Shown: positions 31,599 through 61,944 of the stretch, one piece after another
Numbering within the stretch: position 1 is the first letter of the stretch
How the letters are laid out: each line of letters starts with the position of its first letter
Origin: Kordiimonas sp. SCSIO 12603
GTDB lineage: Bacteria; Pseudomonadota; Alphaproteobacteria; Sphingomonadales; Kordiimonadaceae
Reading direction: 5' to 3'
Assembly (NCBI RefSeq): GCF_024398035.1
Contig: NZ_CP073748.1
Span: 3,277,001 to 3,341,000, forward strand
DNA: 64,000 nt
Translations under genes and position numbers: made by a program
Notes under the pieces: model-generated
Told to the model about the DNA's origin: nothing
The model's input: only the letters and a program-made list of their open reading frames with translations
The model's database searches: none

Positions 31599-33272
31599 AT
31601 GCCGCGCGAGAAAAGACAACACAGCTACTTTGAATTTATCATCATTAGCTTGTTGATTTTCATTGCTTCAATGCAAGCTTTTGAATGGTCACTCGCGGGT
31701 ATAATACCTATTCTCCACTCAGTGTTTTTATTATCAAGCTACCTGCTTGTTCGGCTTGTATTAGGCCGCCTTCATCCCTTTATAGGCTCAAGTATTTTTG
31801 CTGTCTCTGTTTTGCTTCTAATCACTGAGATATCAATCTATCAGTTCACAGGTCTGCATCTAAACAGGTTTGTTCTGTCACTCCTGTTTCAACCCGATGC
31901 CAGCAATCAAACCGGCATTTCAGGGAACTTACTCTTTTTAGGAATTTCCATCATTTTCCTGATATGCCTTTGGCTCAGCCGAAAATTACTTAAACCCTCT
32001 TTTGTTCTGAAAGGCCGACTATTAGCAATATCGACAGTCATTTCACTGGCGTCTGCTCAATTCACTTTTGGCATTTTGTTTTTCCATGGGCAATCCGACG
32101 CTATGGAGGTGAAACGGGAACTCCCCTTTTTCGCGGTCACACCTTCTTATTACACCAGAAAATTTTTTGGCCTGTTTTGGGAACAAACACCGGAAACACC
32201 GTTTGGTTATAAGCCCCAAAATTTTGCGAAACGAGATAACTCACCTGGCGTGTCAATCACCTTCAAACGCCGCAAAAACATCCTCTTAATAGTCACCGAT
32301 AGCCTTCGTGCTAAAGATATTAAGCAGGACCCGACCCTAACACCAAACCTTAACCACTTCTTTGAAAATGGCTTCACTTCCTATGACCATCTAGCAACTG
32401 CAAACTGCACCCATTTCAGTTTCTACAGTATGCTATCAGGAAAACTTGCTACCAGCTTTGGCAACGCCAGACGGAGTGGTGGATCAAACAGCCTCATCAA
32501 AACTTTCGCAAACAACGGTTATAAAACCTCATCGAGTGAAGCCACTTCTCTTGATTGGTATGATGTTTCTTCCATTATATTCGCGGAGGATACCAATAGG
32601 GTAACTTGGGATGAAGATACTGATGACCTACGTAATGATACTCAGGTTACCAAGAACACGATAAAAACACTGAAGGAATATGCGAAAGACAATACACCTT
32701 TCTTTCATCTCTCCTATTACTACGGCAATCATTTTCCTTATCTTAGTGAAACAGACACTACAGATTTAACGCTCAAGGAACGTTACCTCGCAAGCATCCG
32801 GACATTTGATACTCAGATAGGTGAGATACTCTCATATATAAACACCAGCGGACTTGCAGATGACACAGTTGTCATTGTTACTTCGGACCATGGGGAAGAG
32901 TTGCGAGAAGGTGGTATTATGGGGCATTCGGGGCGTCTATCAGACGAACAGGTTTATGTACCATTTTGGCTCTCAGGCTTACCTCAAAATTACTTTCAAA
33001 ATATCAAAAGTCACATTGATCTACATTCCACTATTTCAACTTTCATGGAAGGTAGAGACGCCAGAGTGAATAACAGCCCAATCATACTTACTAACTGCGA
33101 TTATGATTTCCCAAGCGCTTTCGCCGTATTACGTAAAGATAGCCGCAATGATTTTCTGTATGACCACGGGTACCTAAGCCCCATGCAGAAAAGAAATACC
33201 GAAATAACAAAAAAGCAACAGATTGAAGATGCCAATCTGTTGCTTGGAATAATTAAGGGTTCAGAAAACTAG
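31599..33272 (+). CDS. Membrane-anchored alkaline-phosphatase-superfamily protein, YejM/PbgA-like
   Basis: A 557-residue protein with five predicted helices (within 1-165) and a periplasmic sulfatase-type domain. Asp234 in LLIVTDSL, Cys270-Thr271 in ANCTHFSFYSMLSG, Asp430-His431 in SDHGEE and His443 in MGHSG form a plausible metal and nucleophile site. The layout of five helices, a juxtamembrane segment containing LHLNRFVLSLLFQPD, then the hydrolase domain recalls E. coli YejM (PbgA), which controls lipopolysaccharide synthesis, but here metal-site residues look more complete. A phosphoethanolamine transferase or LTA-synthase-like role is an alternative. Its stop overlaps that of the convergent regulator. 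Confidence 0.75.
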   Translation: MPREKRQHSYFEFIIISLLIFIASMQAFEWSLAGIIPILHSVFLLSSYLLVRLVLGRLHPFIGSSIFAVSVLLLITEISIYQFTGLHLNRFVLSLLFQPDASNQTGISGNLLFLGISIIFLICLWLSRKLLKPSFVLKGRLLAISTVISLASAQFTFGILFFHGQSDAMEVKRELPFFAVTPSYYTRKFFGLFWEQTPETPFGYKPQNFAKRDNSPGVSITFKRRKNILLIVTDSLRAKDIKQDPTLTPNLNHFFENGFTSYDHLATANCTHFSFYSMLSGKLATSFGNARRSGGSNSLIKTFANNGYKTSSSEATSLDWYDVSSIIFAEDTNRVTWDEDTDDLRNDTQVTKNTIKTLKEYAKDNTPFFHLSYYYGNHFPYLSETDTTDLTLKERYLASIRTFDTQIGEILSYINTSGLADDTVVIVTSDHGEELREGGIMGHSGRLSDEQVYVPFWLSGLPQNYFQNIKSHIDLHSTISTFMEGRDARVNNSPIILTNCDYDFPSAFAVLRKDSRNDFLYDHGYLSPMQKRNTEITKKQQIEDANLLLGIIKGSEN

Positions 33273-33910
33273 CCAGCAGTTTTCAAGCTGTTTGCCACGA
33301 TAGAGATGACGGTTTTCTTGGCATCTTCAAACATATCGTCAGTAAGTGGCTCGCCATCGTTCATAGCATTAATCTGTGCTTCGAAATCCGCATAATGCTG
33401 GGTGCTACCCCAAATCATGAAGAACAAGTATCTGGCATTGATTGATGCCATTTTGCCTTCAGCAATCCAGTTTTGGATAATACTTTCTCTACTATCCAAC
33501 CAAGGCTTCACTATCTTGGTAAGATAGTCCTGCAAGAATGGGGCACCACTGGCTATCTCAATAGCGAACAAACGTGAACCATGAGGCCGTTTTCTAGCCA
33601 AATCCATTTTTGATGAAATATATTTTTCAAAAGCGACTAAAGGTTCTACTTCTTCATCAAATAAATCAGCAGCATGAAGCCACATCGAGCACACTTCTTC
33701 GATGACTCTTCTATATAGATCTTCTTTTGCACCAAAATAATAGTAGATGTTTGGTTTTGGTACGCCGGCTCGTTCCGCAATCAGGCCAACACTTGCACCC
33801 TTAAATCCTTTTTCCGCAAACACCGTTTCTGCAGCGGCTAAAATTTTTGCTTCGTTTTCTCTGCGAATATTCGCTTTATGGCCTGTCCCTTGGCCTTTTT
33901 TAACACTCAT
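33269..33910 (-). CDS. TetR-family regulator, RutR-like
   Basis: A 213-residue regulator. The N-terminal helix-turn-helix is NEAKILAAAETVFAEKGFKGASVGLIAERAGVPKPNIYYYF in outline (near 17-57), and the C-terminal part has SRLFAIEIASGAPFL and WGSTQHYADFEAQI, the pattern of RutR (TetR_C_3) proteins. RutR in E. coli binds uracil and controls pyrimidine genes. ATG 33910 follows GAGAGGA; an upstream TTG at 33961 is weaker. Palindromes resembling the RutR box lie before the receptor, ABC importer/upp and deoC genes in this window, so I propose it controls nucleoside use. Confidence 0.88.
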   Translation of the reverse strand: MSVKKGQGTGHKANIRRENEAKILAAAETVFAEKGFKGASVGLIAERAGVPKPNIYYYFGAKEDLYRRVIEEVCSMWLHAADLFDEEVEPLVAFEKYISSKMDLARKRPHGSRLFAIEIASGAPFLQDYLTKIVKPWLDSRESIIQNWIAEGKMASINARYLFFMIWGSTQHYADFEAQINAMNDGEPLTDDMFEDAKKTVISIVANSLKTAG

Positions 33911-33968
33911 ATCGTCCTCTCGCCGTATCCCTTCGGCATTCGGTAACTGATGTTTCCCCAAAACAAGC

Positions 33969-33994
33969 GCGCCCGAGACGATAATCTCGGGCGC
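33969..33994 (-). terminator. Terminator of the TonB-dependent receptor gene
   Basis: Ten-base perfect stem GCGCCCGAGA (33969-33978) / TCTCGGGCGC (33985-33994). On the minus strand GCTTGTTTT follows; on the plus strand a T-rich run ACATTTTTT also follows. It lies between the receptor stop and the TetR gene. Confidence 0.85.
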
Positions 33995-34024
33995 ACATTT
34001 TTTGTAATTAACTACGAGCTCAAA

Positions 34025-37000
34025 TTAGAACTTGTACTTAACGCCTACTTGAATGCGCCATAGTGTATCTTGTACGTCGTTAAACTGACGAGGAGCTTCA
34101 AAGTTGCTGTACACATACTGGCCTTGATCATTGATCTCAGCTGCAACAAGAGGAATACCCTCAGAACTATCAGTATTGATAAAGCGTTGAGCGCCATTAC
34201 CGATAAAGTTCAGGAAGTTTTCAAAGTTAACGAACACTTCAACTTTGTCTGTGGCGAAGAAGCCCGGAAGCTCCTGAGAGATGCGTAGATCGAGATCTGT
34301 ATTCCACGGCTGGCTTACTGAACTACGATCGATGATTGAACCGCCTTCAAGACCTTCAGCAGCGATGAAATTCAAGAATGCTGTTTCTGTCTCTGCATCA
34401 GCATATGTCACTAGAGGATCATCTGCACCTGTAGGGATATAAAGTAGGCTACGCGCTACATCATCAGAGTCACCAAATGCATCAGTAGATGTATCTGCAT
34501 CAAACACATAAGATAGTGGGCGACCAGAATTAACACGGAAGAACGCACCAACTTTAGTCTGCAGGTCATCGAAGAACTCGTTAGAGTATGTCGCACGAAC
34601 TACAAAGTTATGTCTGTTGCTGTTCACAGAACGACCAAGACCAACATTGTTAAAGTTAGATGTTGCAACTTGCTCGAAGTTAGAGCCTGCAGTCGAAGAA
34701 CCACCAGCGTTACCAACAACAGAGTCGTTGTATGCGTAACCAAAGCGGAAATCTAGAGTAGAACGATCTGTCAGATCGAATGTTTTACCGAACTGAGCTG
34801 AAAGCGAGAAGCTATGTCCACCACCGTTAACAGCATTGGTAAGAACGATGTTTTGCGCGCCGCTGCTAATACGATCACTGAAGCATGCGTCGGTTGCGTT
34901 AGTGAAACCCTCACGGATACCAGCAAATGTCGCATTACAACCATCTGCAAAACCTGGGTTACTCAGGTCAAGCTGAGAGAAGATCGGACGACCATCTGGA
35001 GCTGTATCAGTTTGAACAAGAGACAGATCAACAAAATCTACGCCGTTAACAATATCGCTATAGATCGCGTCTAACTGAATTGTCCAGTCATCGAAGAAAT
35101 TCGAACCAGTATTCTCAGTAATATGCGTTACACCAAGGCTGAAACGGTTTTGAGTTGGTAATTTGAAGTCTGGGTCAACAGCTGCAACTGTAGCAAGGTT
35201 GCCCTGAGCTTCTGCTTGACCAGCATCACGTACACACTGAGGAATACCAGAGAAAGTACCACCAGCAAGTACGTTCAGATCTTCAGCAGTACAAGAACTG
35301 TTTCTTGAATCGCCAAGGCCAATAGCACCACCAAAGTTCTGGAATGAGTTCGCAAACCATACGGTTGGGTCACCACCAGAGAATTTACCAAAGCCACCTG
35401 TGAATGTCGTATTACCAAGACCTTCAGGTGTCCATGTGAAACCGATACGTGGCTGAAGCACATCAAGACCAGAGAATGCTTGAGTATTTGCGAAACCAAA
35501 ACGGTCCTGGAACACTGGGTTCAGGTTAGGAGCATCACCAGACTTATAGAAGTCATAACGTAGACCAACAACAAGTTCGAAGTTGCTGTTAACCTGCCAT
35601 TTATCCTGAAGATAAAGAGTGTGAATGTTACGAGTAAACTCAGCAGCAGCGTCTGTTGGGTTACCAGTGAATGTCTCGTTGATACGGATAAATTGAGCCT
35701 GACCAGCTTCTAGAGCATCGATATCTTCAAAGAACACTGTACCAGTAGCGTTAATGATGAAGAGGTTGAATACGTCTAGGTTATCAAGTTCGTAACCCGC
35801 TGTGAACAGGTGATCACCAGCTACATAATCAGCTTTAAATTTGATCTGATCGATACGAACGTCAAGCTGGTTAGCGGAACGGAATACGCCAGGGCCAGAT
35901 GCGAAATCTTGATCAAAGAATTCGTTAGAGAACGAACGGCCACCGATTGCGATACGCGGAGTATTTTCAGCCTGAGCTTCACCACCGAATGCAGGATCCT
36001 GAATATCGCTAATGTCGTTACGAGACATACGGAATTCAGTAGATAGGTTATCTGACCAGTCTGAGAACACGCGTAGAGCGTATGTATCAGATACAGAACC
36101 ACGGTTGTGGAAGTTATCCTGGAATGTGAACTCACCACGGCCAGAACCAAAATCATCATTCGCAAGACGGTTTTCTTCTAGACGACCGTATGTTGCTTCT
36201 AGACGGTGGTCATCGTTGATGTTCCAGTCAATACGACCGAAGAAACGACGGCTTGTATTTGGAAGTGTAGAAACAATATCACCAACTGTACGACCATATT
36301 GGCTTTCAAGAATGCTGCGCACACGATTAATGTCGTCTGTGCGAAGGTCGTTAATAGTGTTAGCACCGCTTGCGTTGGCGTTAATGAAGTCACCGCTTAC
36401 TGTACCGTAGTTAGGAATATCACCTTCATCTGTTTCTTCGTAAGAACCATAGAAGAAAAGCTTATCTTGGATGATTGGACCACCAAGTTCAGCACCCCAG
36501 TTATAGCGATCGAACTCAGCTCCACCAAGCGCATCTTCACCATCAATAGTTGAACCGGTAATTTTGTCGCCGTTATATAGGAAGAATGCAGAACCGTGGA
36601 ATTCGTTAGAACCAGATTTTGTAACAACGTTAATGTTACAGCCAGTAAACTGACCATATTCAACGTCTACTGGAGAGAATTCTACAGAAGCAGCTGCAAT
36701 TGTATCGAATGGAATTGGGAACGTGCTACGAGCAAGGTTACCTGAAGAGTTCAGGCCGAATGCATCAGCTGCGCGTACACCATCAATTGTAAAGGAGTTC
36801 ACACGTGGAGAACCACCGTTACAAGAAACACCAAAACCACCACCGTTGTTTGAACGACCAATGTTTACACGTGGGTCAACACGGATGATGTCACGAACCT
36901 GACGGCTGATTGAAGGCGCTGTTTCAATATCTGTCAGTGTGAAAGAAGAGCTTGGGCCAACTGCTACTGTAGAGCTTACAATTGCAGAAGCTGTAATTAC

Positions 37001-37369
37001 GATTTCTTCAACACCGTCTTGAGAAGCCTGAAGCTGGATGTCGAAGTTAGGTGTAGATGATAGGTTTGTGAAAACGTCAGTTACAAGTGCGTCTTCGTAG
37101 TTACCACCTTCAACACGAATAGTGTAAGGACCACCAACTTGAAGGGAGCGAACATTAAACGCACCGTTTGAGTTAGTTGTTGTACGGCTAACGCTGCCAG
37201 TACGTGTATCAGTAACAATTACTGTAACACCAGATAGTGTATCACCAGCTGGTGAGTAAATAGTACCACGGACACCCGCAGTAATTTCCTGCGATACCGC
37301 AGGAACACTTGCGGCCATGGCGGCAAGTGCAACGCTGCTACAAAGAGCAGTCTTAAATAGGCGATTCAT
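34025..37369 (-). CDS. TonB-dependent receptor, Oar-like with N-terminal carboxypeptidase-regulatory-like domain
   Basis: A 1114-residue outer-membrane receptor. Signal peptide 1-27; a carboxypeptidase-regulatory-like domain (about 30-115, GVRGTIYSPAGDTLSGVTV); then a plug with SISRQVRDIIRVDPRVNIG and a large barrel ending in IQVGVKYKF with terminal Phe. Oar-type receptors import large or poorly known ligands with TonB energy. The gene is followed by a RutR-like regulator and preceded by the nuclease/deo operon, and two RutR-type boxes lie in its promoter, so nucleosides or nucleic-acid fragments are a reasonable but unproven ligand. Confidence 0.92.
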   Translation of the reverse strand: MNRLFKTALCSSVALAAMAASVPAVSQEITAGVRGTIYSPAGDTLSGVTVIVTDTRTGSVSRTTTNSNGAFNVRSLQVGGPYTIRVEGGNYEDALVTDVFTNLSSTPNFDIQLQASQDGVEEIVITASAIVSSTVAVGPSSSFTLTDIETAPSISRQVRDIIRVDPRVNIGRSNNGGGFGVSCNGGSPRVNSFTIDGVRAADAFGLNSSGNLARSTFPIPFDTIAAASVEFSPVDVEYGQFTGCNINVVTKSGSNEFHGSAFFLYNGDKITGSTIDGEDALGGAEFDRYNWGAELGGPIIQDKLFFYGSYEETDEGDIPNYGTVSGDFINANASGANTINDLRTDDINRVRSILESQYGRTVGDIVSTLPNTSRRFFGRIDWNINDDHRLEATYGRLEENRLANDDFGSGRGEFTFQDNFHNRGSVSDTYALRVFSDWSDNLSTEFRMSRNDISDIQDPAFGGEAQAENTPRIAIGGRSFSNEFFDQDFASGPGVFRSANQLDVRIDQIKFKADYVAGDHLFTAGYELDNLDVFNLFIINATGTVFFEDIDALEAGQAQFIRINETFTGNPTDAAAEFTRNIHTLYLQDKWQVNSNFELVVGLRYDFYKSGDAPNLNPVFQDRFGFANTQAFSGLDVLQPRIGFTWTPEGLGNTTFTGGFGKFSGGDPTVWFANSFQNFGGAIGLGDSRNSSCTAEDLNVLAGGTFSGIPQCVRDAGQAEAQGNLATVAAVDPDFKLPTQNRFSLGVTHITENTGSNFFDDWTIQLDAIYSDIVNGVDFVDLSLVQTDTAPDGRPIFSQLDLSNPGFADGCNATFAGIREGFTNATDACFSDRISSGAQNIVLTNAVNGGGHSFSLSAQFGKTFDLTDRSTLDFRFGYAYNDSVVGNAGGSSTAGSNFEQVATSNFNNVGLGRSVNSNRHNFVVRATYSNEFFDDLQTKVGAFFRVNSGRPLSYVFDADTSTDAFGDSDDVARSLLYIPTGADDPLVTYADAETETAFLNFIAAEGLEGGSIIDRSSVSQPWNTDLDLRISQELPGFFATDKVEVFVNFENFLNFIGNGAQRFINTDSSEGIPLVAAEINDQGQYVYSNFEAPRQFNDVQDTLWRIQVGVKYKF

Positions 37370-37489
37370 TCCCTAAGCTCCATTAAGTACGAACACCCAC
37401 ATTACTTATACCCAAGGGTGTCCCTTTGGACTTCCGTCCATTCGTACAAAAAGTTTCCCACACAAAACTAGGCGTAAGAAAACCAAAAA

Positions 37490-37505
37490 TTGACCGTTTA
37501 GTCAA
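37490..37505. promoter_or_regulatory. RutR-type box 1 upstream of the TonB-dependent receptor
   Basis: TTGACCGTTTAGTCAA matches the E. coli RutR consensus TTGACCANNTGGTCAA at 12 of 14 fixed positions. It is centred about 128 bases before the receptor ATG. Confidence 0.6.
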
Positions 37506-37568
37506 ATTGGTAAAAGAAACACCTACCTCATGCGTGAGGCTCTTTTATGCGCCGTTTCTTTCAGTTTT

Positions 37569-37584
37569 TTGACGAAAGTGTCAA
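37569..37584. promoter_or_regulatory. RutR-type box 2 upstream of the TonB-dependent receptor
   Basis: TTGACGAAAGTGTCAA keeps the TTGAC-N6-GTCAA arms and matches 11 of 14 fixed consensus positions. It lies 79 bases upstream of box 1, centre to centre. Confidence 0.5.
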
Positions 37585-37832: not shown

Positions 37833-38615
37833 TTATTTTTTGAACATTTCGTTCAAATAACCAGCCAAACGAATCCCCCCCTTGGAAAGTTGGCTTTTTA
37901 CTAGCGGTGTATATTTGTAGACATAGTCCCAAGAAAGAATACCATTTTCGGCGCTTTTATAAATATCGCCGCGATAAGAGATCAGCTCACGCACCCAGTC
38001 AATCGGCTCAGACCGTTGCCATTCAGTAATGTGGTTAGCTTTAATTTTAGGATCCAAGAAGTTCGTCCACTCGGTAAAAGATAGATCCTTGTGATCGATC
38101 AAATCCTCATCCCATACTTTGTGAAGATTAGACATCTCACCAAACCAAGCTACATCAATGCGGTTTCCACCACGATCTTCTGAGCGTCCAGCATGCAGCG
38201 GCTGATGTAGATCACCAACAATGTGGATAATGAACCTAAGAGCGAGCGCTTTGTCTTCTTTCGAAGCATTCTCGTCTTTCACTACCTTGGTGAAATTTTC
38301 AAGAGCTGTGAGAGCATCGCCGCCTGGGTTCTTTTCGCTTTCTTCGTAAGTCACGCCATCAGGCAAATTGATATAGTGATATACATTTGCGGTACGGCGG
38401 AAAAACTCCTCCGGGCTTGAACGCATTTCATCAGGCCATGTTGATGCCTCTGCCATCAATTCATCGCCAAGAATAGCTTCAACGGCTGCCCGTGCATCTG
38501 GCGACAAATGACGAAATGCAAGTTCAGCAATCACTCTGTGCCCTGTTGGGCCATAGGCAGTCGCCGCAGATGTCATCAACATTAGCGCTGCGAAAATTCC
38601 GGTAAATAGACGCAT
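37833..38615 (-). CDS. Secreted S1/P1-type nuclease
   Basis: A 260-residue zinc-dependent nuclease that degrades single-stranded DNA and RNA and removes 3'-phosphates. Signal peptide 1-20 (ATA end), then YGPTGHRVIAELA with His26, STWPDEM, VYHYINLP, DLHQPLHAG and GGNRI, giving the trinuclear zinc ligands. The mature N-terminus would be Tyr21; most family members have Trp, whose backbone binds zinc. ATG 38615 follows GAGGGG; the longer frame to 38678 is not needed. It is last in the deo operon, consistent with extracellular nucleic-acid use. Confidence 0.9.
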   Translation of the reverse strand: MRLFTGIFAALMLMTSAATAYGPTGHRVIAELAFRHLSPDARAAVEAILGDELMAEASTWPDEMRSSPEEFFRRTANVYHYINLPDGVTYEESEKNPGGDALTALENFTKVVKDENASKEDKALALRFIIHIVGDLHQPLHAGRSEDRGGNRIDVAWFGEMSNLHKVWDEDLIDHKDLSFTEWTNFLDPKIKANHITEWQRSEPIDWVRELISYRGDIYKSAENGILSWDYVYKYTPLVKSQLSKGGIRLAGYLNEMFKK

Positions 38616-38652
38616 AATCCCCTCTCTGATTACCTTAGTAAAAAAGCGCGAA

Positions 38653-39870
38653 CTAAATCGCGCTTTCACCATCCTCAAGTGCCGCTATGCCAAGGTGTGT
38701 TGCAATCGTTTGCCCGATATCGGCAAATGAACGGCGCACTCCTGCACTACCAGCTTTTAACTTCGGCCCATAAGCAATAAACGGCACATGCTCACGTGTA
38801 TGATCTGTCCCCGGCCATGTTGGGTCACAGCCGTGGTCCGCTGTCAGGATAACAATATCATCCTCTTGCATGCGGCCAGTGAACTCTGGCAAGCGTGTAT
38901 CGAAATACTCAAGCGCAGCCGCATAACCACCCACGTTACGGCGGTGCCCGTATGTCTGGTCAAAGTCCACAAAGTTCACAAATGTGAGCGAGCCATCCTT
39001 GGCTTCATCTTGCATCTTCATGGAAAGATCAAACAAGCCTTCAAGGCCGTTTGCTTTCACCTTTTTAGTCAATCCTTTATGGGCAAAGATGTCAGCGATT
39101 TTACCAACACTAATCACTTCGCGGCCTTCTGCTTCCAGTTTTTCAAGAAGTGTTGGCTTGTGTGGTGGCGTTGCATAATCGCGGCGGTTCCCTGTACGCT
39201 CAAAGCTACCCTCGTCACCAAGGAATGGACGCGCAATCACCCGGCCAATTTCATATTTATCCACAAGTTTGCGAGCAACTTCACACACCTCGTAAAGACG
39301 CTCGAGACCGAAAGTCTCTTCATGAGCAGCCACCTGGAACACGCTGTCAGCTGATGTGTAAACAATCGGCTTACCGCTCTCCATATGCTCTTTACCAAGT
39401 TCATCAAGTACTACAGTGCCAGATGCCGCTTTATTTCCGAGTACGCCTGGAAGGTTACATCGCTCGCAAAGCTCATTAATTAGCTCTTCCGGGAAACTTG
39501 GGAATTCTTGTGGGAAATAACCCCAATCAAACATCACCGGTACACCGGCCATTTCCCAGTGGCCCGACGGCGTATCTTTACCAAATGAAAGCTCTTCACA
39601 CGCGGCATACATGCCAGTGATATCACCGCTAAACTCTAGCCCAGCTGGTTCTTTACCTGTAGCCAATTCCGCAGCTTTACCAAGACCAAGCTGCGCCATA
39701 TTTGGAAGGTTCAGTTTACCCGCTGCCGGTCGGTCATCAGATGTATTACCAGCCGCACACCAATCAGCGATATGGCCCAGAGTGTCTGAACCTACATCCC
39801 CAAATTTATCGGCATCCGGCGCAGCACCAATACCAAAACTATCTAGAACAAGAATGAAAGCACGTGCCAT
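38653..39870 (-). CDS. deoB: Phosphopentomutase
   Basis: Interconverts (deoxy)ribose-1-phosphate and -5-phosphate, linking nucleoside phosphorylases to the pentose pools. An alkaline-phosphatase-superfamily enzyme of 405 residues: [16 protein letters not shown] at the N-terminus carries the first metal Asp, [11 protein letters not shown] holds the phosphorylated Thr, and [12 protein letters not shown] with DHTREHVP supplies the second metal site. It lies four bases after deoA and is followed by the nuclease gene. Confidence 0.97.
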
Positions 39871-39874: not shown

Positions 39875-41218
39875 CTACCCCTGAATGATTTCAGCTGTCA
39901 CAGGTGTGATTGCAGGTGCTTCATCAGTAATTTTAATAGAAGCCTGAACCTGTGCAATTGCAGCATCTGCCGCTGCTTCTGTTCGAGCATACACCATCGC
40001 AAGCGGCTGGTCTTTCTCAATACGGTCGCCAAGCTGACAAATTTCAGTGAGGCCAACTGAATGATCTACCTTTGCTGCAGGGTCCGTACGGCCACCACCA
40101 AGAGCAACAACAGCCATACCAACTTCACGAGCATCCATTTTGGAAACAAAACCAGATGCTGTTGTCGGTACAGGTTTTACAACTGGTGCATAAGAAAGAT
40201 ATTTTCCGTGGTTTTCTACGATATCAGCTGGGCCGCCATGTGCAGCTGCCATTTTACCGAATATCTCAGCAGCTTTACCGTTATTCAGCGCTTCTTCAGA
40301 TTTCGCACGTGCTGTCGCTACATCTGGCTGCGCGCCAGAAATCGCAAGCATATGAGCTGCCAGATCAAGCGTTACATCAAGTAGACGCTGGTCTGCATTC
40401 GCAGAATCTGTCAAAAACTCGATTGTTTCCAACACCTCAACGGCATTACCTGCTGTGCGGCCCAGAACCTGGTTCATATCTGTAAGCAGCGCTGTTGTTG
40501 GTGTATCAGCCGCTCCCGCTACACGCACGATGTTCTCAGCCAATACTTTCGCTTTATCAAAGCTATCCATGAAAGCGCCAGAACCAAACTTCACATCCAT
40601 CACCAGCGAACCAAGGCCAGCTGACAATTTTTTGGAAAGGATAGACGCTGTAATTAATGGTACAGATTCGACAGTCGATGTTACATCACGGATACCGTAA
40701 AAACGCTTGTCAGCAGGTGCCAAATCACCTGTTTGACCAATGATGGAACAACCAACTATTTTCACAATCTCAGCAAAACGGTCAATGCTTGGGTACGGAT
40801 CATACCCCGGGATCGCTTCAAACTTATCAAGCGTACCACCGGTATGACCAAGGCCACGGCCAGAAATCATCGGCACCAAGCCACCACACGCAGCCACAAT
40901 TGGCGCAAGCATCAAGCTTACCTTATCGCCGACACCGCCCGTAGAGTGCTTATCTGTGATTGGGGCATCTGCATCAAAACCGAACTTCTGCCAATCAATC
41001 ACATCACCGCTATCACGCATAGCAAGAGTAAGAGCTGCACCTTCTTTTGGTGTCATACCGTTAAAGAAAACAGCCATGCCAAGCGCCGCGATCTGGCCCT
41101 CCGTTACAGCACCGCTAGTGATACCCGCTACAAACGCTTTGATATCATTTTCAGAAATTTCACCACCATCGCGTTTAACGCGGATTGCTTCCTGGGGCAG
41201 GAACACGCTCTCAGTCAT
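39875..41218 (-). CDS. deoA: Thymidine phosphorylase
   Basis: Splits thymidine or deoxyuridine to base and deoxyribose-1-phosphate. Its 447 residues show the helical domain, the signature [20 protein letters not shown] near 118-137, [13 protein letters not shown] near 88-100 and the phosphate-site [20 protein letters not shown]. The start is three bases from the cdd stop. Product flows to DeoB encoded next. Confidence 0.97.
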
Positions 41219-41221: not shown

Positions 41222-41644
41222 TTAGCCTTTTACTTTATCAATATTTTCTGGACCAAACGAATGCGGCAACAAATCCGCACTGTGTGTTTCCAACAAGATG
41301 TTCCCCCGATTATCGCATATGGTTACAGGCGCCCCCGTTTGGCCTGCAAACTCACGAATTTTCTGGCGGCAACCACCACACGGCGTACACTCGTGCACGC
41401 CCGGGCCAACCACCACAACATGTTTGATGGTATTGCTACCACCCCCAAGTACCATGTTACCGATTGCTGTTGCTTCAGCGCATTGCCCAAGTGGATATGC
41501 TGCATTTTCAACATTACAGCCCGCATAAATTTTACCATCGCCAGTTAAAAGCGCAGCTCCTACTGGATGGTTTGAATATGGGGCATAAGCTTTTTGAAGC
41601 GCGCCAACAGCCGCTTCAATAAGGTCTGCTTTTACGTCAGACAT
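41222..41644 (-). CDS. cdd: Cytidine deaminase (tetrameric type)
   Basis: Converts cytidine and deoxycytidine to uridine and deoxyuridine. At 140 residues it is the short tetrameric form. The zinc site is Cys55-Ala56-Glu57 with Cys89 and Cys92 in PCGGC; Glu57 is the proton shuttle. It sits between the nucleoside transporter and deoA, so imported cytidine can be fed to the phosphorylase. Confidence 0.97.
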   Translation of the reverse strand: MSDVKADLIEAAVGALQKAYAPYSNHPVGAALLTGDGKIYAGCNVENAAYPLGQCAEATAIGNMVLGGGSNTIKHVVVVGPGVHECTPCGGCRQKIREFAGQTGAPVTICDNRGNILLETHSADLLPHSFGPENIDKVKG

Positions 41645-41645: not shown

Positions 41646-42617
41646 CTAGTGATCCTTCTCGTAAGGAATACCGCTTGCTCTTGGCGCCTGAATTTTTCCT
41701 ACAAAACCCGCAAGGATAATAACAGTCAGCACATAAGGTAGCATAATTGTAAATTGAACAGGGATCTCACCAATGAGCGGTAAAGCAACACCTTGTAGGC
41801 GGCCCTGAAGAGCATCAACAAAACCAAAGAGTAAGCAAGCAAGAAGTGTTGGAACAGGTTTCCATTTTCCGAAGATCATCGCCGCAAGTGCTAAATAGCC
41901 CTTGCCCGCCGACATATCGCGGATGAAACCAGCACCAAGACCTGTTGAAAGCACAGTACCAGCAAGGCCACATAATACACCAGCAATCACCATCGCCTGA
42001 TAGCGAAGAAGAGTTACTGAGATACCAGCCGTATCAACTGCCTCTGGGTTTTCACCCACCGCGCGAAGGCGAAGACCGAAGCGCGTTTTATAAAGCATCC
42101 ACGCCACTAGCGGTACAATCACGATAGTCATATAAGTGATAATATTATGACCTGATAAAATCTCGCTATAGAGCGCACCAATTACAGGCACATCAGCCAA
42201 ACTGTCTGCGAACGGGAAAGTGATGGTGCTGAAACGTGCCTCATCACCCAGAAGCGGTGTCTGCCCACCTTTCTCGAACCAGAAATTTGCAAGAGTTGGC
42301 GCAAGACCAGCCACTGCGATATTTATCGCCATGCCGGATACAATCTGATTACCGCGCTGGCTGATAGAAACATAACCATGGAGTAACGCAAGAAGAATGG
42401 AAGCACCAATGCCCGCAGCCATACCAGCCCAAGGTGAACCAGTTACTGCTGCGGACGCTGCTGCCGCGAATGCAGATGCAAGCATCTTGCCTTCAAGACC
42501 AATATCAACCACACCACCACGTTCACAAACAAGGCCAGCAAGAGCTGTCAAAACAAGAGGTGTTGCAATCCGGAAAGTAGAATCCGTGAGCAGCACTAAA
42601 TCAGCGAAAAACTCCAT
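41646..42617 (-). CDS. Nucleoside ABC transporter permease (second)
   Basis: A 323-residue inner-membrane permease of the BMP-type purine/pyrimidine nucleoside importer (NupQ-like). The family block RLRAVGENPEAVDTAGISV is near 178-196, with about eight to ten helices. Its start overlaps the previous permease stop (TAATG), and cdd follows with one base between. The partner subunits are encoded upstream. Confidence 0.93.
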   Translation of the reverse strand: MEFFADLVLLTDSTFRIATPLVLTALAGLVCERGGVVDIGLEGKMLASAFAAAASAAVTGSPWAGMAAGIGASILLALLHGYVSISQRGNQIVSGMAINIAVAGLAPTLANFWFEKGGQTPLLGDEARFSTITFPFADSLADVPVIGALYSEILSGHNIITYMTIVIVPLVAWMLYKTRFGLRLRAVGENPEAVDTAGISVTLLRYQAMVIAGVLCGLAGTVLSTGLGAGFIRDMSAGKGYLALAAMIFGKWKPVPTLLACLLFGFVDALQGRLQGVALPLIGEIPVQFTIMLPYVLTVIILAGFVGKIQAPRASGIPYEKDH

Positions 42618-43732
42618 TAGGCTGCTCCCTCTTTGGCGGTTTGAATTTTAGTGAAAATCCTAGTTACCGGATCACGGAACAGATGCTCAAGCGCGCCGGC
42701 GAACAAAATTACCAAGCCCTGGATCATGATGATCAGGTCACGTGTAATCGTCGGCATCTCAAACGCTAACTCCGCACCACCTTGATAAAGAGCACCAAAT
42801 AGAAGCGCCGCAAGAATAATACCAACTGGGTGGTTACGCCCCATAAAGGCAACAGCAATACCAACAAAACCGTACCCAAGCGTGAATCCACCAAGCAGAC
42901 GGTGCTGCTGACCTAGAAGTTCATTAAGCCCCATCATGCCAGCAAGTGCACCCGAGATCATCATGGCAATGATCGTCATCTTCGACACTGAAACACCTGC
43001 AAATGCAGCAGCATTCGGGTTTTGGCCAACCACACGAAGTTCATAGCCAAAGCGAGTACGCCACAGAAGGAACCAAACTCCAACCGCACATAAAAGCGCG
43101 ATGATAAGTGATACGTTCATCGGCCCATCTTCAAATGTCTTACCAAACATGCCAAAGATTTCATGAAGCGGCATTAAGCTCGCACCTTCAGGAAAATCCG
43201 CACTTTCAGGCATCTGTCCACCAGGGCGCTGAAGCGGCCCAACAAGCAGATATGCCAGCAGCGAAGATGCAATAAAGTTGAACATGATTGTAGTGATCAC
43301 AATGTGGCTACCACGCTTCGCTTGAAGATAAGCAGGAACGTAAGCCCATGCCGCACCAAACAGTGCTGCACCTATAATTGCCATAATCACAGCAAGGAAT
43401 GGCGACAAACCAGAGAACAAGAACACCGCAAGCGTTAACCCAAGCCCGCCAAGCATCGCCTGCCCTTCACCACCAATATTAAAGTGCCCCGCATGAAACG
43501 CAATTGAGACAGCAAGGCCCGTGAAGATAAAGTTGGTCGCGTAATAGAAGGTGTAGCTGATGGCTTCTTCAAAGCCAAAAGCACCATCAATCAATAGCGA
43601 TAGCGCGAGGAAGGGATCTTCACCCAGCGCCCAAATAACAATTCCAGAAACCAAAAACGCCGCCAGCAGATTCAGTGCCGGAAGCAAAATAGCATCCGCC
43701 CAAAATGGTAATTTCTTTGCGCCTGCAGCCAT
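42617..43732 (-). CDS. Nucleoside ABC transporter permease (first)
   Basis: A 371-residue permease (NupP-like) pairing with the 41646-42617 product. Conserved segments are FNIGGEGQAMLGGLG near 85-99, AHWAYVPAYL-like AAWAYVPAYLQAKRGSHIV and RVVGQNPNAAAFAGVSV. Both ends use one-base TAATG overlaps, so the transporter genes are translationally coupled. Confidence 0.93.
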   Translation of the reverse strand: MAAGAKKLPFWADAILLPALNLLAAFLVSGIVIWALGEDPFLALSLLIDGAFGFEEAISYTFYYATNFIFTGLAVSIAFHAGHFNIGGEGQAMLGGLGLTLAVFLFSGLSPFLAVIMAIIGAALFGAAWAYVPAYLQAKRGSHIVITTIMFNFIASSLLAYLLVGPLQRPGGQMPESADFPEGASLMPLHEIFGMFGKTFEDGPMNVSLIIALLCAVGVWFLLWRTRFGYELRVVGQNPNAAAFAGVSVSKMTIIAMMISGALAGMMGLNELLGQQHRLLGGFTLGYGFVGIAVAFMGRNHPVGIILAALLFGALYQGGAELAFEMPTITRDLIIMIQGLVILFAGALEHLFRDPVTRIFTKIQTAKEGAA

Positions 43733-45285
43733 TATTCTTCTTCCTTTGCAGTCACATTATCCAGAGAACCACCCGCCATCAGGAGGCCGAGAGTTTTCTC
43801 GTCAGCTTCTTCCACAGGAAGCACACCCGTAATTTCACCTTCACACATCACTGCGATACGGTCAGAAATCGCTAGAAGTTCATCAAGATCAGCGGATACA
43901 ACAAGCATCGCTTTACCAGCGTTTCTAAGCTCTGTGATCTGGTCGTGAATTTTCGTTACGGCGCCGATATCAACACCGCGTGTAGGCTGGCCAATAACCA
44001 TCAACTGCGGATCACGTGCAATTTCACGCGCGATCACAACTTTCTGCTGGTTACCACCAGAGAAGGAACCAATTTCCAGATTAGGATTGCGCGGGCGCAC
44101 ATCCTGGCTTTCAAAATATTCAGCCGCCTTTTGTGCAATATGCTTTAGCTTCAGAACGCCACGAGAAACAAAATCAGGTTCACGCTGATAACCAAGGATA
44201 ATGTTTTCCTTGGCTGACATGCTTTCAACCACACCTGTTTTCAGGCGATCTTCAGCTACATGCGCCATACCCATACGGCGCAGTGTGATTGGATCAGTAG
44301 TGATACTGTCCGTCGCCACAACATCACCAGAAAAACTAACGCTACCTGAGACGACACCGCGAAGCCCGGTTACCACTTCAAGAAGCTCCGTCTGGCCGTT
44401 TCCTGCTACACCAGCAATTCCCAGTACTTCACCATCATGTACATCAAGCGAAACATTCTTTAGCGCGGCATGCCCTTGGTCATTACTCGCATTCACCTGA
44501 TGGAGCGAAAGGCGAGCAGCAGTTGCGCCGTGGCTTTCACGAGCCACTTCCCGCACCACTTTCGCGCCAACCATCAACTCAGCCAGTTCTTCACAGGATG
44601 TTTCTGATGTTTTACGGCGCGCGACAACTTTACCAGCCCGAATAACGGTTACATCATCCGTCGTTGCCATAATTTCGTGTAGCTTATGAGTTACGAAAAG
44701 AACGGTTTTACCCTGCTCTCTGAGAAGCTTCACAAGCTCAAACAATTGCTCACATTCTTGAGGAGTGAGTACTGCTGTTGGCTCATCTAAAATGAGTATT
44801 TCCGCGCCTTTATAAAGAGCTTTCAAAATCTCAGCGCGTTGGCGCACACCCACAGCCAAATTCTCAACAGGTTCATCCAGCGGTAGGTCAAAGCCGAATT
44901 TTTCTTCAAGCTCTAAAAGAGCCTTGCGGGCATCTTCTTTCGCTTCCTCAAGCTTGCTGGAAGTTTCAGCGCCCAGAATAATATTCTCTAGCACTGTGAA
45001 AGGCTCAACCAGCATAAAGTGCTGATGCACCATGCCTACGCCCCGTGCCATGGCGTCAGCTGGGTTTACAAAACTTACGTGCTCCCCCTGCACCAAAACA
45101 TCACCAGAATCTGGCGTGTAAAATCCAAACAGCATTTTAAGCAGTGTTGATTTACCAGCACCATTTTCCCCCACAATACCGTGGACAGTGCCTTTACCAA
45201 CCTGCAAGCTAATACCATCATTCGCGCGAACTGCTCCAAAACGCTTGGAAAGCTCGCGCGTTTCAATTGCTAAAACTTCAGACAT
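43732..45285 (-). CDS. Nucleoside ABC transporter ATP-binding protein
   Basis: A 517-residue ATPase with two fused nucleotide-binding domains, as in sugar and nucleoside importers (NupO-like). Domain 1 has GENGAGKSTLLKML near 38-51, LAVGVRQRAEILKAL and LILDEPTAVL; domain 2 has a degenerate Walker A GVAGNGQTELL, FSGGNQQKVVIAREI and GQPTRGVDIGA. It energises the two adjacent permeases. It follows the binding-protein gene by about 30 bases. Confidence 0.95.
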   Translation of the reverse strand: MSEVLAIETRELSKRFGAVRANDGISLQVGKGTVHGIVGENGAGKSTLLKMLFGFYTPDSGDVLVQGEHVSFVNPADAMARGVGMVHQHFMLVEPFTVLENIILGAETSSKLEEAKEDARKALLELEEKFGFDLPLDEPVENLAVGVRQRAEILKALYKGAEILILDEPTAVLTPQECEQLFELVKLLREQGKTVLFVTHKLHEIMATTDDVTVIRAGKVVARRKTSETSCEELAELMVGAKVVREVARESHGATAARLSLHQVNASNDQGHAALKNVSLDVHDGEVLGIAGVAGNGQTELLEVVTGLRGVVSGSVSFSGDVVATDSITTDPITLRRMGMAHVAEDRLKTGVVESMSAKENIILGYQREPDFVSRGVLKLKHIAQKAAEYFESQDVRPRNPNLEIGSFSGGNQQKVVIAREIARDPQLMVIGQPTRGVDIGAVTKIHDQITELRNAGKAMLVVSADLDELLAISDRIAVMCEGEITGVLPVEEADEKTLGLLMAGGSLDNVTAKEEE

Positions 45286-46318: not shown

Positions 46319-46400
46319 GACTTTTAACTCCGCGGAGGCACAATATTGTATATGGTTATATATGCCCCGAAATCGATCGAAGGCGCAAGGGAACCAGAGC

Positions 46401-46416
46401 AGGACCGCTTGGTCAA
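46401..46416. promoter_or_regulatory. Weaker RutR-type site in the ABC importer/upp region
   Basis: AGGACCGCTTGGTCAA matches the RutR consensus at 11 of 14 fixed positions, with a perfect right arm TGGTCAA. It is 22 bases from the stronger palindrome at 46423-46438. Confidence 0.4.
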
Positions 46417-58320: not shown

Positions 58321-58424
58321 CCTACCATATAAGCGAGATTTCAGGATTTCAAAGTAAAAACCTTACTGATCGGTACACGTTCACGCACATGTGAAACAGA
58401 TCTGTCTACCTAAGGCAATTTTCC

Positions 58425-58454: not shown

Positions 58455-58477
58455 CCATAAATTATTTCAGATAAATC

Positions 58478-60886
58478 TTAGTAAGATTTACCGCCTTCGT
58501 TGGCATCACCGTAAGGCACCCAGATATTCTTCACTTCAGTACCGCGTTCCATCAATGCTTTAGGGTTCATATGATCGGAGTTTGTCCAGTCATACGCTTT
58601 ACCGTAATTAAGCCATGTGCGTTTCATGTTATCGGCAGCTAGCGCTTCAACATCTGCACAGCCTTCACGGCTACCAAAGTACCAAATACCGTCGATACCA
58701 AAGTGCTTGGCAAGCGGCGCAGCCATCGCATCACGCGGGCCTGTTACAATGTTCACTACGCCAGCTGGAACATCTGATGTTTCCAGAATTTGGTAGAAAT
58801 CAGTTGCAAGAAGCGGATAGCGCTCAGACGGAATAATCACACTTGTATTGCCTGTCGCCATTGCAAACGCCATCAGCGTTACAAACGCAAGAAGCGGGCT
58901 TTCATCTGGGCATACAATACCAAGTGTTCCTACTGCTTCGTTCATTGCCAGTGCAACACCGCGCATTGGAGGCTCATGTACACGGCCTTCGTGCTTATCA
59001 GCATAAGCAGCAGCAGTGAACAGACGCTGGATTGATAGCTCAACCTCTTTCTCAGCAGCTTTCTGCGTAACACCTGTTAGAGACACAAGGCGCTCTTCAA
59101 ACTCAGTGGCGCGAGAGCTTAGGTTCTCAGCGATATAGAAAAGGATCTGCGCACGCAGGTGACTTGTCTTACCAGCCCAACCAGAAGCTTTAGTCGCAGC
59201 TTCAACAGCATTACGGATATCTTTGTAGTTACCCGCACTCACAAGGCCAGCGTAAGCACCTTTGGACGTCGCAACGGCAACACTGTCACCGCCATCAGGA
59301 CGCGCCTGCTTACCTCCGATATACATTTTCGCTGTTTGGTCGATACCGCTCAGCCCAGAACCAGCTTTTGGCTTAGCAACAGTTTCTGGCTTCGCAATCG
59401 GCTTCCACTCTTTGAGAGTTTTCTCAAAGCGGTGCTTCATATATGCAAGCATACCTTCGCGACCACCTTCACGGCCAAAGCCACTTTCACGGTAACCACC
59501 AAAGCCAACAGCTGCGTCCATCATGTTCGTGCCATTAATCCATACGATACCTGATTTCAGCGCTGGAGCCACTTCGAGAGCACGGCTAATGCTTTCAGAC
59601 CAAACTGTCGCTGCAAGCCCGTATCGTGAGTTGTTAGCAAGGCCAACAGCTTCTGATTGCGTACGGAAAGTCACGGCCGTTAGAACCGGACCAAATACTT
59701 CTTCGCGGTAAAGCGTGTTATCTGTACCAACGCCTGTCACGAGTGTTGGTGGGAAGAACACACCTTCAGTTGGCATAACACACGGTGCCTGATAAACTTC
59801 CGCACCTTCTTCTTCACCTTTTTTGATGAGTGCTTCGATACGGTCTTTCTGAACGCTATCTACAACCGCACCCATATCGATACATTTATCAAGGCTGTTA
59901 CCAACACGAAGGTTGCCCATACGTGTTTTCAGCTTCGCGAAGAAACGATCTGCGATACCTTCTTGCACAAGAAGACGAGAACCAGCGCAGCACACTTGCC
60001 CCTGATTGAACCAGATGGCATCAACAACACCTTCAACAGCGCCGTCGATATCTGCATCTTCAAACACGATGAATGGAGATTTACCGCCAAGCTCAAGTGT
60101 TAGTTTCTTGCCTGTACCAGCAATTGCGCGGCGAATAATCTTACCAACATCTGTTGAGCCGGTGAATGCCACTTTGTCAACGTCAGCGTCCACAATCATA
60201 GCACCAACATCGCCTTCACCGGTTACGATGTTTACAACACCTTTTGGAAGGCCAGCTTCTTCACAAAGTTCAGCAAACTTAAGTGCTGTAAGAGATGTAA
60301 ACTCAGCAGGCTTCAGAACAACTGTGTTACCAGCTGCAAGCGCTGGAGCTACCTTCCAGGCAAGCATCAGGAACGGGAAGTTCCACGGAATAACCTGCCC
60401 TGCAACACCAACAGCTTCATACTCTGGAAACTCTTCGTCCATAAGCTGAGCCCAGCCAGCATGGTGATAGAAATGACGCGCAACCAGCGGCACATCAATG
60501 TCACGGCTTTCACGGATTGGCTTACCGTTATCAAGGCTTTCAAGTACCGCTAAAACACGGGAGTGTTTCTGAACAAGGCGTGCAAGCGCATACATATAGC
60601 GCGCACGGCCGTGGCCACCAAGTGCTGCCCACTTGCCTTGTGCTGTACGAGCTGCAAGAACCGCTGCATCAACATCTTCCTGGCGAGCTGCAGTAATATC
60701 AGCAAGCTTTTCACCAGTGGATGGTGCGTATGTTGCGAATGTTTTAGCGCCCTCAGGCTTTACCCATTCGCCACCAATAAACATGCCAAAGGATTTATCA
60801 TTTTCCGCAAGCCAGCTATCCGCGGCAGAACGGCTTTCAAGTGCTGGAGCGTAATCCATGCTTTCAAACTTTTCTTTAACGTTCAT
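58478..60886 (-). CDS. ALDH16-type aldehyde dehydrogenase (two ALDH domains)
   Basis: An 802-residue fusion of two aldehyde dehydrogenase domains. The first has the catalytic residues: Asn169 in IPWNFP, Glu265 in LELGGKSP and Cys299 in GQVCCAG. The second, from about 510, keeps the fold (PAGVVNIVTG, YFGSREG) but lacks the catalytic cysteine, as in the ALDH16 family. Downstream of deoC on the same transcript, it could oxidise acetaldehyde from deoxyribose-5-phosphate to acetate. Other aldehydes are possible. Confidence 0.9.
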   Translation of the reverse strand: MNVKEKFESMDYAPALESRSAADSWLAENDKSFGMFIGGEWVKPEGAKTFATYAPSTGEKLADITAARQEDVDAAVLAARTAQGKWAALGGHGRARYMYALARLVQKHSRVLAVLESLDNGKPIRESRDIDVPLVARHFYHHAGWAQLMDEEFPEYEAVGVAGQVIPWNFPFLMLAWKVAPALAAGNTVVLKPAEFTSLTALKFAELCEEAGLPKGVVNIVTGEGDVGAMIVDADVDKVAFTGSTDVGKIIRRAIAGTGKKLTLELGGKSPFIVFEDADIDGAVEGVVDAIWFNQGQVCCAGSRLLVQEGIADRFFAKLKTRMGNLRVGNSLDKCIDMGAVVDSVQKDRIEALIKKGEEEGAEVYQAPCVMPTEGVFFPPTLVTGVGTDNTLYREEVFGPVLTAVTFRTQSEAVGLANNSRYGLAATVWSESISRALEVAPALKSGIVWINGTNMMDAAVGFGGYRESGFGREGGREGMLAYMKHRFEKTLKEWKPIAKPETVAKPKAGSGLSGIDQTAKMYIGGKQARPDGGDSVAVATSKGAYAGLVSAGNYKDIRNAVEAATKASGWAGKTSHLRAQILFYIAENLSSRATEFEERLVSLTGVTQKAAEKEVELSIQRLFTAAAYADKHEGRVHEPPMRGVALAMNEAVGTLGIVCPDESPLLAFVTLMAFAMATGNTSVIIPSERYPLLATDFYQILETSDVPAGVVNIVTGPRDAMAAPLAKHFGIDGIWYFGSREGCADVEALAADNMKRTWLNYGKAYDWTNSDHMNPKALMERGTEVKNIWVPYGDANEGGKSY

Positions 60887-60898
60887 GATGACTTTCCC

Positions 60899-61858
60899 TT
60901 AACCCATTGGGTGACGATAAGAAGCAGAGTAACCACCTGTTGCATGATACTCTAATTGACGTTCAAGATCACCAAGAAGGCTTGATGCACCAAAGCGGAA
61001 CAGTTCTGGCTCCAGCCAGTCACGGCCAAGTTCTTCTTTAATCAGTGTAAGGTATGTCACAGCATCTTTCGCTGTTTTTATACCGCCCGCTGGCTTGTAA
61101 CCAACTTTCTGGCCTGTACGCTCATAGAAATCACGGATCTGGCGGATCATCACTAGGGATACCGGAAGCGTTGCATTCACACCTTCCATACCAGTGGATG
61201 TTTTGATGAAATCAGAACCAGCCATCATCGCAACCATAGAAGCTTTACCAACCTGTGTAAGGTTGCCGTGCTCGCCTGTCGCCAGAATAGTTTTCATCAG
61301 CGCCGGGCCACATGCTTCTTTAAACGCTTTCACTTCATCATAAAGCGCCTGCCAGTTCCCTGTAAGAACGTGTGCACGTGTTACCACGATATCAATCTCG
61401 CCAGCACCTGCTTCAACAGAACGGCGAATTTCCTCTAGCCTTGTTTCCATCGGCGCAAGACCAGCTGGAAAGCCTGTAGATACAGCAGCCACCGGAACAC
61501 CGGAACCTTTAAGGCCTGCAACGGCTTCTGGCACCATTTCATGGTACACACACACAGCGCCAGTTGTGATACGCATATCACCAACACCAAGTGCTTCCAT
61601 AATATCATGGCGCACTGGGCTTGCTGCCTTTTGTGCCAAACGTTTCACACGGCCTAGTGTGTCATCACCGGCTAGTGTGGTCAAATCAATACAGCTGATT
61701 GCTTTCAGCATATATGCAATTTGAGAATCTTTCTTCACAGACCGGCGGGTACCGATTGTGCTCGTGCGGCGCTCAACAGCGCTTTTGTTCACACGGATAC
61801 CTTCCAGCCACTCAGCGTGGAAGGCTGTTCCTCTATTTACAAGGCTCTCAGATGACAT
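60899..61858 (-). CDS. deoC: Deoxyribose-phosphate aldolase, long eukaryote-like form
   Basis: Splits 2-deoxyribose-5-phosphate into glyceraldehyde-3-phosphate and acetaldehyde. The Schiff-base lysine is Lys219 in DFIKTSTG; GFPAG and KPAGGI are the other phosphate-binding blocks. At 319 residues it has an N-terminal extension with VNKSAVERR and RRSVKKDSQ, much like human DERA and unlike the shorter E. coli enzyme. ATG 61858 follows GGGACG; the 61870 ATG lacks a ribosome site. It lies 12 bases upstream of the ALDH16 gene and has a RutR-type box before it. Confidence 0.95.
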   Translation of the reverse strand: MSSESLVNRGTAFHAEWLEGIRVNKSAVERRTSTIGTRRSVKKDSQIAYMLKAISCIDLTTLAGDDTLGRVKRLAQKAASPVRHDIMEALGVGDMRITTGAVCVYHEMVPEAVAGLKGSGVPVAAVSTGFPAGLAPMETRLEEIRRSVEAGAGEIDIVVTRAHVLTGNWQALYDEVKAFKEACGPALMKTILATGEHGNLTQVGKASMVAMMAGSDFIKTSTGMEGVNATLPVSLVMIRQIRDFYERTGQKVGYKPAGGIKTAKDAVTYLTLIKEELGRDWLEPELFRFGASSLLGDLERQLEYHATGGYSASYRHPMG

Positions 61859-61928
61859 GTTACGTCCCATGTTTGGTGGCCAAATTTATACATCCGCGCA
61901 AAACGGATTGCGCGTAAAAAGCCAAATC

Positions 61929-61944
61929 TTGACCCGTTGGTCAA
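61929..61944. promoter_or_regulatory. RutR-type box upstream of deoC
   Basis: TTGACCCGTTGGTCAA matches the RutR consensus at 13 of 14 fixed positions, the best match in the window. It overlaps the stop codon of the permease gene and lies about 80 bases before the deoC start. Confidence 0.65.

Follow-up and report, generated by a model that had tools for sequence, protein, structure and literature searches.

The window analysed here, 64,000 nucleotides of the Kordiimonas sp. SCSIO 12603 genome (NZ_CP073748.1, positions 3,277,001 to 3,341,000), raises the question of whether a TetR-type regulator, encoded beside a TonB-dependent outer membrane receptor gene and genes for nucleoside uptake and breakdown, governs these genes through a palindrome that recurs in front of them, and, if so, in response to which signal. 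The original prediction, made from the DNA letters, was an expanded RutR regulon in which uracil or a nucleoside controls the uptake and breakdown of nucleic acids. Our own answer, to which we assign a probability of roughly 0.8, is that this TetR protein belongs to the RutR superfamily and represses a regulon for nucleoside scavenging, with uracil as the signal to which it responds. The boxes at the nucleoside genes have stood up, being conserved in relatives and, at deoC, following the presence of the protein; the regulator is not a RutR in the strict sense. The observations that carry this reading are the positions of the boxes, their conservation, their co-occurrence with the protein at deoC, and the conserved uracil and DNA contacts of the protein itself. 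The regulator, the receptor gene and the sites are as follows (coordinates are those of the window):

33269-33910, minus strand: gene of the RutR-like TetR regulator, 213 amino acids (frame open to 33961; PF08362 146.7 bits, PF00440 59.2 bits).
33966-33997, minus strand: strong hairpin between the receptor and regulator genes, probably the terminator of the receptor mRNA (the same gap holds a strong hairpin in 13 of 13 genomes folded).
34025-37369, minus strand: TonB-dependent outer membrane receptor gene, behind the double box (OMP_b-brl_4, CarboxypepD_reg and Plug domains).
37490-37505, minus strand: proximal receptor box, TTGACTAAACGGTCAA in gene sense, exact match.
37569-37584, minus strand: distal receptor box, TTGACACTTTCGTCAA in gene sense, exact match, 79 bp from the proximal box.
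46411-46416, no strand assigned: conserved half-site GGTCAA, the right half of a weak variant at 46401-46416, 22 bp from the full box.
46423-46438, plus strand: full box in the gap that separates upp from the importer operon, exact match, conserved.
61929-61944, minus strand: box before deoC, TTGACCAACGGGTCAA in gene sense, exact match, kept together with this type of TetR protein.

All four exact copies of TTGAC-N6-GTCAA were recovered where they had been claimed in the window (37490-37505, 37569-37584, 46423-46438 and 61929-61944), and they lie, as described, before the TonB receptor gene, between the BMP-type importer and upp, and before deoC, at sites that are conserved in relatives. Dinucleotide shuffles of the window (n = 100) contain a mean of 0.12 such palindromes, and four were reached in none of them. 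The chance rate first assumed, about one per Mb, was too low, as the whole genome (3.85 Mb, a single contig) holds 11 matches, or approximately 3 per Mb; the binomial P for at least four of these 11 falling inside the 64-kb window is 2e-5, for a window picked after the fact. With up to one mismatch allowed, the window alone contains 9 boxes against 6 for the reversed control. The loci of 20 relatives contain 30 exact boxes against 1 control match, and 88 against 19 at one mismatch or fewer. A fifth genomic match, 1.5 kb beyond the end of the window, falls within the coding sequence of thymidine kinase (tdk) and is probably due to chance.

Conservation of the sites in close relatives had been set beforehand as a test of the prediction, and the sites passed it, with the boxes at deoC tracking the TetR protein. 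The comparison drew on 29 Kordiimonadaceae genomes, among them that of the window. A box precedes deoC in 23 of 23 genomes that encode this type of TetR protein (at least 56% identity) and in none of five that lack it (G004, G005, G006, G007 and G027), where the best match has three to four mismatches; G028, which has no orthologous deoC, is omitted from this count. The genes on either side of deoC are retained in all five box-less genomes; over the whole set, 26 of 28 loci keep both of them, and the remaining two are truncated at contig ends. The relatives without the regulator, which are also without the deoC box, are thus a natural control. In the tree of deoC and its neighbouring aldehyde dehydrogenase, the box and the TetR type change three times each, in step, and together in all sampled pairs; these amount to one independent pair on well-supported branches and three on all branches, too few for a claim of significance.

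This agreement between box and protein bears directly on a further explanation, that a different regulator, one that recognises a similar palindrome, acts at the boxes and that the neighbouring TetR protein is a bystander. Look-alike palindromes do appear to be in use elsewhere in this genome: TTGACAGCGCTGTCAA at 987825 (L069 4326-4341), between glucokinase and sodium symporter genes, resembles a LacI-type operator, and is probably the site of another regulator rather than of this TetR protein. We consider the bystander explanation very unlikely, since the presence or absence of the deoC box matches that of the TetR type in 28 of 28 genomes, the lysines that contact DNA are kept in the protein, and the boxes at the target promoters have the shape of RutR sites, a 16-bp palindrome. 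For RutR itself a palindrome of approximately 16 bp is described (available text of PMC10891134).

The gap that separates upp from the importer or cdd genes is contained in the loci of 17 relatives, of which 16 have a box with at most one mismatch there; the sole miss, G002, has a box with two mismatches, and the count omits L117, L119, L120, L128 and L132, whose loci contain no upp promoter. The weak variant that the original prediction placed at 46401-46416 is present with two mismatches, but only its right half is kept in relatives, and not the full palindrome: the GTCAA half-site is retained in 18 of 18 aligned upp promoters, and in G003 it forms part of that genome's only full box. Five genomes (G004, G005, G006, G027 and G028) have no RutR-like ortholog at all, and no box at one mismatch or fewer was found in their deoA loci, four of which extend to the divergent gap, the contig of G006 ending before it. 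A separate stretch, GCGCAAGGGAACCAGAGCA (46383-46401), lies between the importer gene start and the boxes and is strongly conserved in most relatives; it is perhaps a promoter or leader element.

Of the 22 relatives that encode this TetR type, 21 have one or more boxes at one mismatch or fewer in the receptor promoter, the exception being G008. Two boxes spaced 79-83 bp apart are found in 16 of those 21 relatives and in the window, that is, in 17 of 23 genomes. The even spacing of the doubled boxes, about eight helical turns, suggests a tighter or looped control of the receptor gene. The place of this receptor in the cluster, which is our sole guide to its role, points to nucleoside or nucleic-acid uptake. 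At the other end of the gene, the hairpin at 33966-33997 may limit read-through into the regulator gene. Two further conserved stretches were noted around this promoter, namely AAAAACTGAAA (37558-37568, gene sense), which comes next after the distal box in most relatives, and GGAGCTTAGGGAATG (37367-37381), which is strongly conserved at the receptor start codon and exceeds a plain ribosome-binding site in length.

Most of the 85 aligned sites with at most one mismatch are extended asymmetrically, towards the regulated gene, by (A/G)GATT (G in 57, A in 79, T in 58 and T in 61), in a table that omits the near-duplicate G011 and in which the deoC row of G017 is one base out of register. This extension, which is missing from the distal receptor boxes, may be a promoter element. 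Together with the position of the box centres, 66 to 208 bp upstream of the start codons, the conserved directional extension would suit a TetR protein that acts as an activator or dual regulator, the double box of the receptor and the GATT extension serving to position RNA polymerase rather than to exclude it. We regard this as unlikely, as the boxes themselves hold TTGAC, the usual -35 core, in gene sense, an arrangement that suggests direct occlusion. The known behaviour of RutR from Escherichia coli falls on both sides, in that it indirectly activates carAB but represses rutA-G (available text of PMC10891134).

As for the regulator predicted to repress these promoters, its gene lies on the minus strand at 33269-33910 as originally stated, and the product contains TetR_N (59.2 bits) and TetR_C_3 (YcdC-like; 146.7 bits) domains, both above their cut-offs and both typical of the broad RutR superfamily. 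It is the only protein of the genome that matches PF08362 at E <= 0.001, RutR chains in the PDB match it at E 2e-44, and its nearest named relative, from Kordiimonas laminariae, is 97% identical. The strict RutR equivalog model TIGR03613 gives 182.5 bits against a cut-off of 368, and NF011584 gives 169.5 bits against 230. A tree built from 68 proteins sets apart a group made up of E. coli RutR, G007b, G135 and five second copies from tandem pairs, at a split with support of 100/97, under a midpoint root and with the E. coli protein on a long branch; the Kordiimonas protein lies in the other part. Among eight loci fetched from other alphaproteobacterial families, members of this sister clade are located inside pyrimidine-degradation clusters in five, and no such genes were seen in L251, L257 and L258. 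In L253, L254, L255 and L256, two adjacent RutR-like genes, one from each clade of the tree, lie inside the pyrimidine-degradation clusters.

The uracil contacts of E. coli RutR are W77, Y97, W167, Q171 and, from the partner, Q179, and its DNA contacts include K52 and K62, according to the available text of PMC10891134. All seven residues are identical in the regulator of the window and in 23 of 23 orthologs. This contact pattern is common to most alphaproteobacterial relatives; in the relatives compared from Gammaproteobacteria, residue 77 is Leu or Ile. The pattern speaks for uracil as the probable ligand, but for nothing special to this clade. The RutR-family features that had been claimed are therefore present in the form of superfamily domains, uracil contacts and DNA-contact lysines, but the equivalog cut-off is missed and the protein belongs to a sister clade. 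Judged by its sequence, the regulator is RutR-like at the level of the superfamily and probably also in its working, and is not RutR in the strict sense. Of the two signals originally proposed, uracil is preferred to a nucleoside, since the protein retains the residues by which E. coli RutR is reported to contact it.

Genes for pyrimidine-ring degradation occur in only part of the family. RutA above cut-off was found in 0 of 29 family genomes and dihydropyrimidinase in 13 of 29, and the window's genome has neither above cut-off (preA was not searched), so that control of ring degradation was not found here. Because neither enzyme was recovered above cut-off, the regulator has apparently outlived its usual target, the degradation operon having been lost here and the rest kept. 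Degradation loci were fetched for nine of the 13 genomes, and the count omits L193 and L195, in which the operon is cut off by the end of the contig. A box at one mismatch or fewer precedes the first gene in seven of seven intact operon heads; six of the genomes concerned encode this TetR type, and the seventh is G007. The operon of G021, for example, encodes a preT-like oxidoreductase (a type assigned by inference), PreA, an omega-aminotransferase and a semialdehyde dehydrogenase, followed by an amidase presumably of the beta-ureidopropionase kind, an NCS1 permease and dihydropyrimidinase.

These operons also bear on the possibility that the boxes are operators of this TetR protein while the signal is a nucleoside, a nucleotide or thymine. 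The targets in the window act on nucleosides and deoxyribose phosphate rather than on uracil itself, and, with neither RutA nor dihydropyrimidinase above cut-off, Upp is the only uracil-using enzyme seen in the genome. Against such a signal, the uracil contacts are retained in every ortholog, the gammaproteobacterial proteins compared differing at residue 77, and in relatives the same box heads operons for the degradation of uracil. We consider a signal other than uracil improbable.

A stringent scan for YTGACC-N4-GGTCAR in 19 genomes of the genus returned 64 sites against 26 for the control, of which we assign 17 to deoC, 9 to the receptor, 2 to the degradation operon, 6 to guanine deaminase and 30 to no recognised target. 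Surroundings were fetched for 36 sites, many of which lie inside reading frames. The boxes before guanine deaminase (guaD) occur in six genomes, where two of the proteins were identified by profile and the others cluster with them; guanine deaminase is likely to be a further target in some relatives.

Several observations weigh against the proposal of a uracil-responsive repressor acting at these boxes. The plain motif TTGAC-N6-GTCAA is not enriched in the whole genome (11 exact matches against 13 for the reversed control), and TTGACCN4GGTCAA at up to two mismatches is rarer than its control there (159 against 272), so that genome-wide enrichment is rejected. The original prediction had named equal frequency of the motif elsewhere as a ground for its own refutation; this is true of the bare motif, and it leaves the cluster and the conservation unexplained. 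The signal is the clustering and conservation of the boxes, not their enrichment across the genome. With 30 of the 64 stringent sites away from recognised targets, many isolated matches are noise. Nor is the box exclusive to this clade, because G007, which lacks this TetR type and encodes two more distant RutR-like proteins, still has a box between upp and cdd as well as the one before its degradation operon. In G008, where the regulator and receptor genes are divergent, the gap between them contains only matches with two mismatches. The 31-odd kept contacts of the protein carry nothing that is specific to nucleosides. As regards autoregulation, no box with zero or one mismatch stands directly before the regulator gene, the only match being one with two mismatches at 34008-34023, and the hairpin sets this gene apart from the receptor gene. 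Finally, no consensus sigma-70 promoter was found in gene sense on the boxes; the single match, which runs across the distal box of the receptor, is antisense.

The genes that would fall under this control are arranged in two divergent groups and a separate deoC locus. On the minus strand, from 46.3 to 37.8 kb, a BMP-type binding protein is followed by an ABC (ATP-binding cassette) ATPase, two permeases, cdd, deoA, deoB and an S1/P1 nuclease; beyond the nuclease come the TonB receptor, the hairpin and the regulator gene. Divergent from the importer operon are upp, a phosphoribosyltransferase and purine nucleoside phosphorylase.

37833-38678, minus strand: S1/P1 nuclease with an N terminus that by eye resembles a signal peptide (PF02265, E 6.8e-60).
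38653-39870, minus strand: deoB, phosphopentomutase (TIGR01696 above cut-off).
39875-41218, minus strand: deoA, thymidine phosphorylase (TIGR02643 above cut-off).
41222-41644, minus strand: cdd, cytidine deaminase (TIGR01354 above cut-off).
41646-43732, minus strand: two ABC permease genes (BPD_transp_2).
43732-45285, minus strand: ATPase of the ABC importer (two ABC stretches).
45317-46318, minus strand: BMP/PnrA-type substrate-binding protein of the importer, with a presumed start within a longer frame (PF02608, E 1.9e-67).
46508-47146, plus strand: upp, uracil phosphoribosyltransferase (TIGR01091 above cut-off).
47152-47706, plus strand: phosphoribosyltransferase, presumably of hypoxanthine type (PF00156; no NCBIfam match at E 1e-30).
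47748-48569, plus strand: purine nucleoside phosphorylase (TIGR01700 above cut-off).
58478-60886, minus strand: aldehyde dehydrogenase behind deoC, 802 amino acids and far longer than a single domain (PF00171, two stretches).
60899-61870, minus strand: deoC, deoxyribose-phosphate aldolase (TIGR00126 140.2 bits, cut-off 117.3).
61941-63557, minus strand: conserved protein of 538 amino acids, rich in hydrophobic segments and encoded upstream of deoC (no Pfam or NCBIfam match at the thresholds used), which by eye resembles a nucleobase permease.

In some relatives a PhoD-like phosphatase lies between the nuclease (or deoB) and the receptor, the proteins having been identified in L122 and L123; frames of similar size occupy the nuclease/receptor gap in L119, L124 and L126. 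Just beyond the end of the window, beside thymidine kinase, L072 5601-7220 encodes a protein of 539 amino acids with an adenosine-deaminase-like part that scores 76.7 bits against a cut-off of 216.6. Further box-bearing genes elsewhere in the genome include a TonB receptor at 2837762, found at E <= 1e-100 only here and in G011 among 19 genomes, and a Peripla_BP_2 gene at 1241 kb; the dcd box at 776568 is likewise present only in this genome and G011. A gene for a TonB C-terminal domain (TonB_C) protein at 3821 kb (L074 5765-5780) has a perfect box with a GAT extension, again only here and in G011; TonB_C homologs in other genomes have no such box in the 24 loci fetched, and the gene is kept as a candidate.

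We propose that a dimer of the TetR protein would bind boxes of the TTGACC-N4-GGTCAA type and block transcription at the receptor gene with its two boxes, at the gap between upp and the importer/cdd/deoA/deoB/nuclease operon, and at deoC. Once nucleosides entered the cell, cytidine deaminase and thymidine phosphorylase would set free uracil and thymine, and uracil would fill the conserved pocket and cause the protein to leave the DNA. Repression would then be lifted, and the receptor, nuclease, importer, phosphorylases and aldolase would be made together. In relatives the same control would extend to the reductive pyrimidine-degradation operon and, in some, to guanine deaminase. Binding of DNA, uracil as the ligand, repression and the substrate of the receptor are all predictions. 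It is conceivable, although we would sooner doubt than assert it, that uracil derived from imported nucleosides signals the presence of DNA or RNA outside the cell, the uracil sensor having been transferred from the control of base degradation to a role at the outer membrane; this one repressor would then switch on a dedicated TonB receptor for fragments of nucleic acid, an exported nuclease or phosphatase, the ABC nucleoside importer and the deoxyribose route, in a genome no longer able to degrade uracil.

The proposed system shares with E. coli RutR (TIGR03613; PDB 3loc, 4jyk and 6z1b) its domain build, uracil contacts, DNA-contact lysines and 16-bp palindrome. It differs in that the Kordiimonas protein lies in the sister clade and below the equivalog cut-off (182.5 bits against 368), in a genome without RutA above cut-off, and in that its targets are the receptor, the nuclease, the nucleoside importer, phosphorylases and deoC, whereas those of E. 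coli RutR are rutA-G and carAB. Related too are the RutR-like regulators of L252-L256 from other Alphaproteobacteria, which belong to the same sister clade and keep the uracil contacts (position 167 is Phe in L223), with boxes in or near most of their reductive pyrimidine-degradation clusters; there the regulator gene lies inside the degradation cluster, whereas the Kordiimonas gene lies behind the TonB receptor beside the nucleoside operon. In E. coli, DeoR and CytR control the deo and nup genes in response to deoxyribose 5-phosphate and cytidine. This system has similar catabolic genes (deoA, deoB, deoC and cdd), but its regulator families and signals are unrelated to those proposed here.

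RutR regulons for pyrimidine catabolism in Proteobacteria have been reconstructed by comparative genomics in 68 genomes of 13 taxa, with taxon-specific changes of the motif (Leyn et al. 2016; PMC5343134); the available text of that paper does not name Kordiimonas. Because it reports RutR regulons of more than 10 genes per genome for other Proteobacteria (PMC5343134), a RutR-like regulon is not in itself new in kind. Among the matches listed in the open-access literature, none describes a RutR regulon that includes TonB, nuclease or deo genes. What seems new is that a RutR-like regulon takes in a TonB receptor together with an exported nuclease and deoC, and that it has apparently survived the loss of ring degradation. 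The finding provides a well-bounded and testable regulon in a marine alphaproteobacterial family. It would name a signal for the scavenging of nucleic acids, would implicate a TonB receptor in the uptake of nucleosides or nucleic acids, and would show a regulator outliving its usual pathway.

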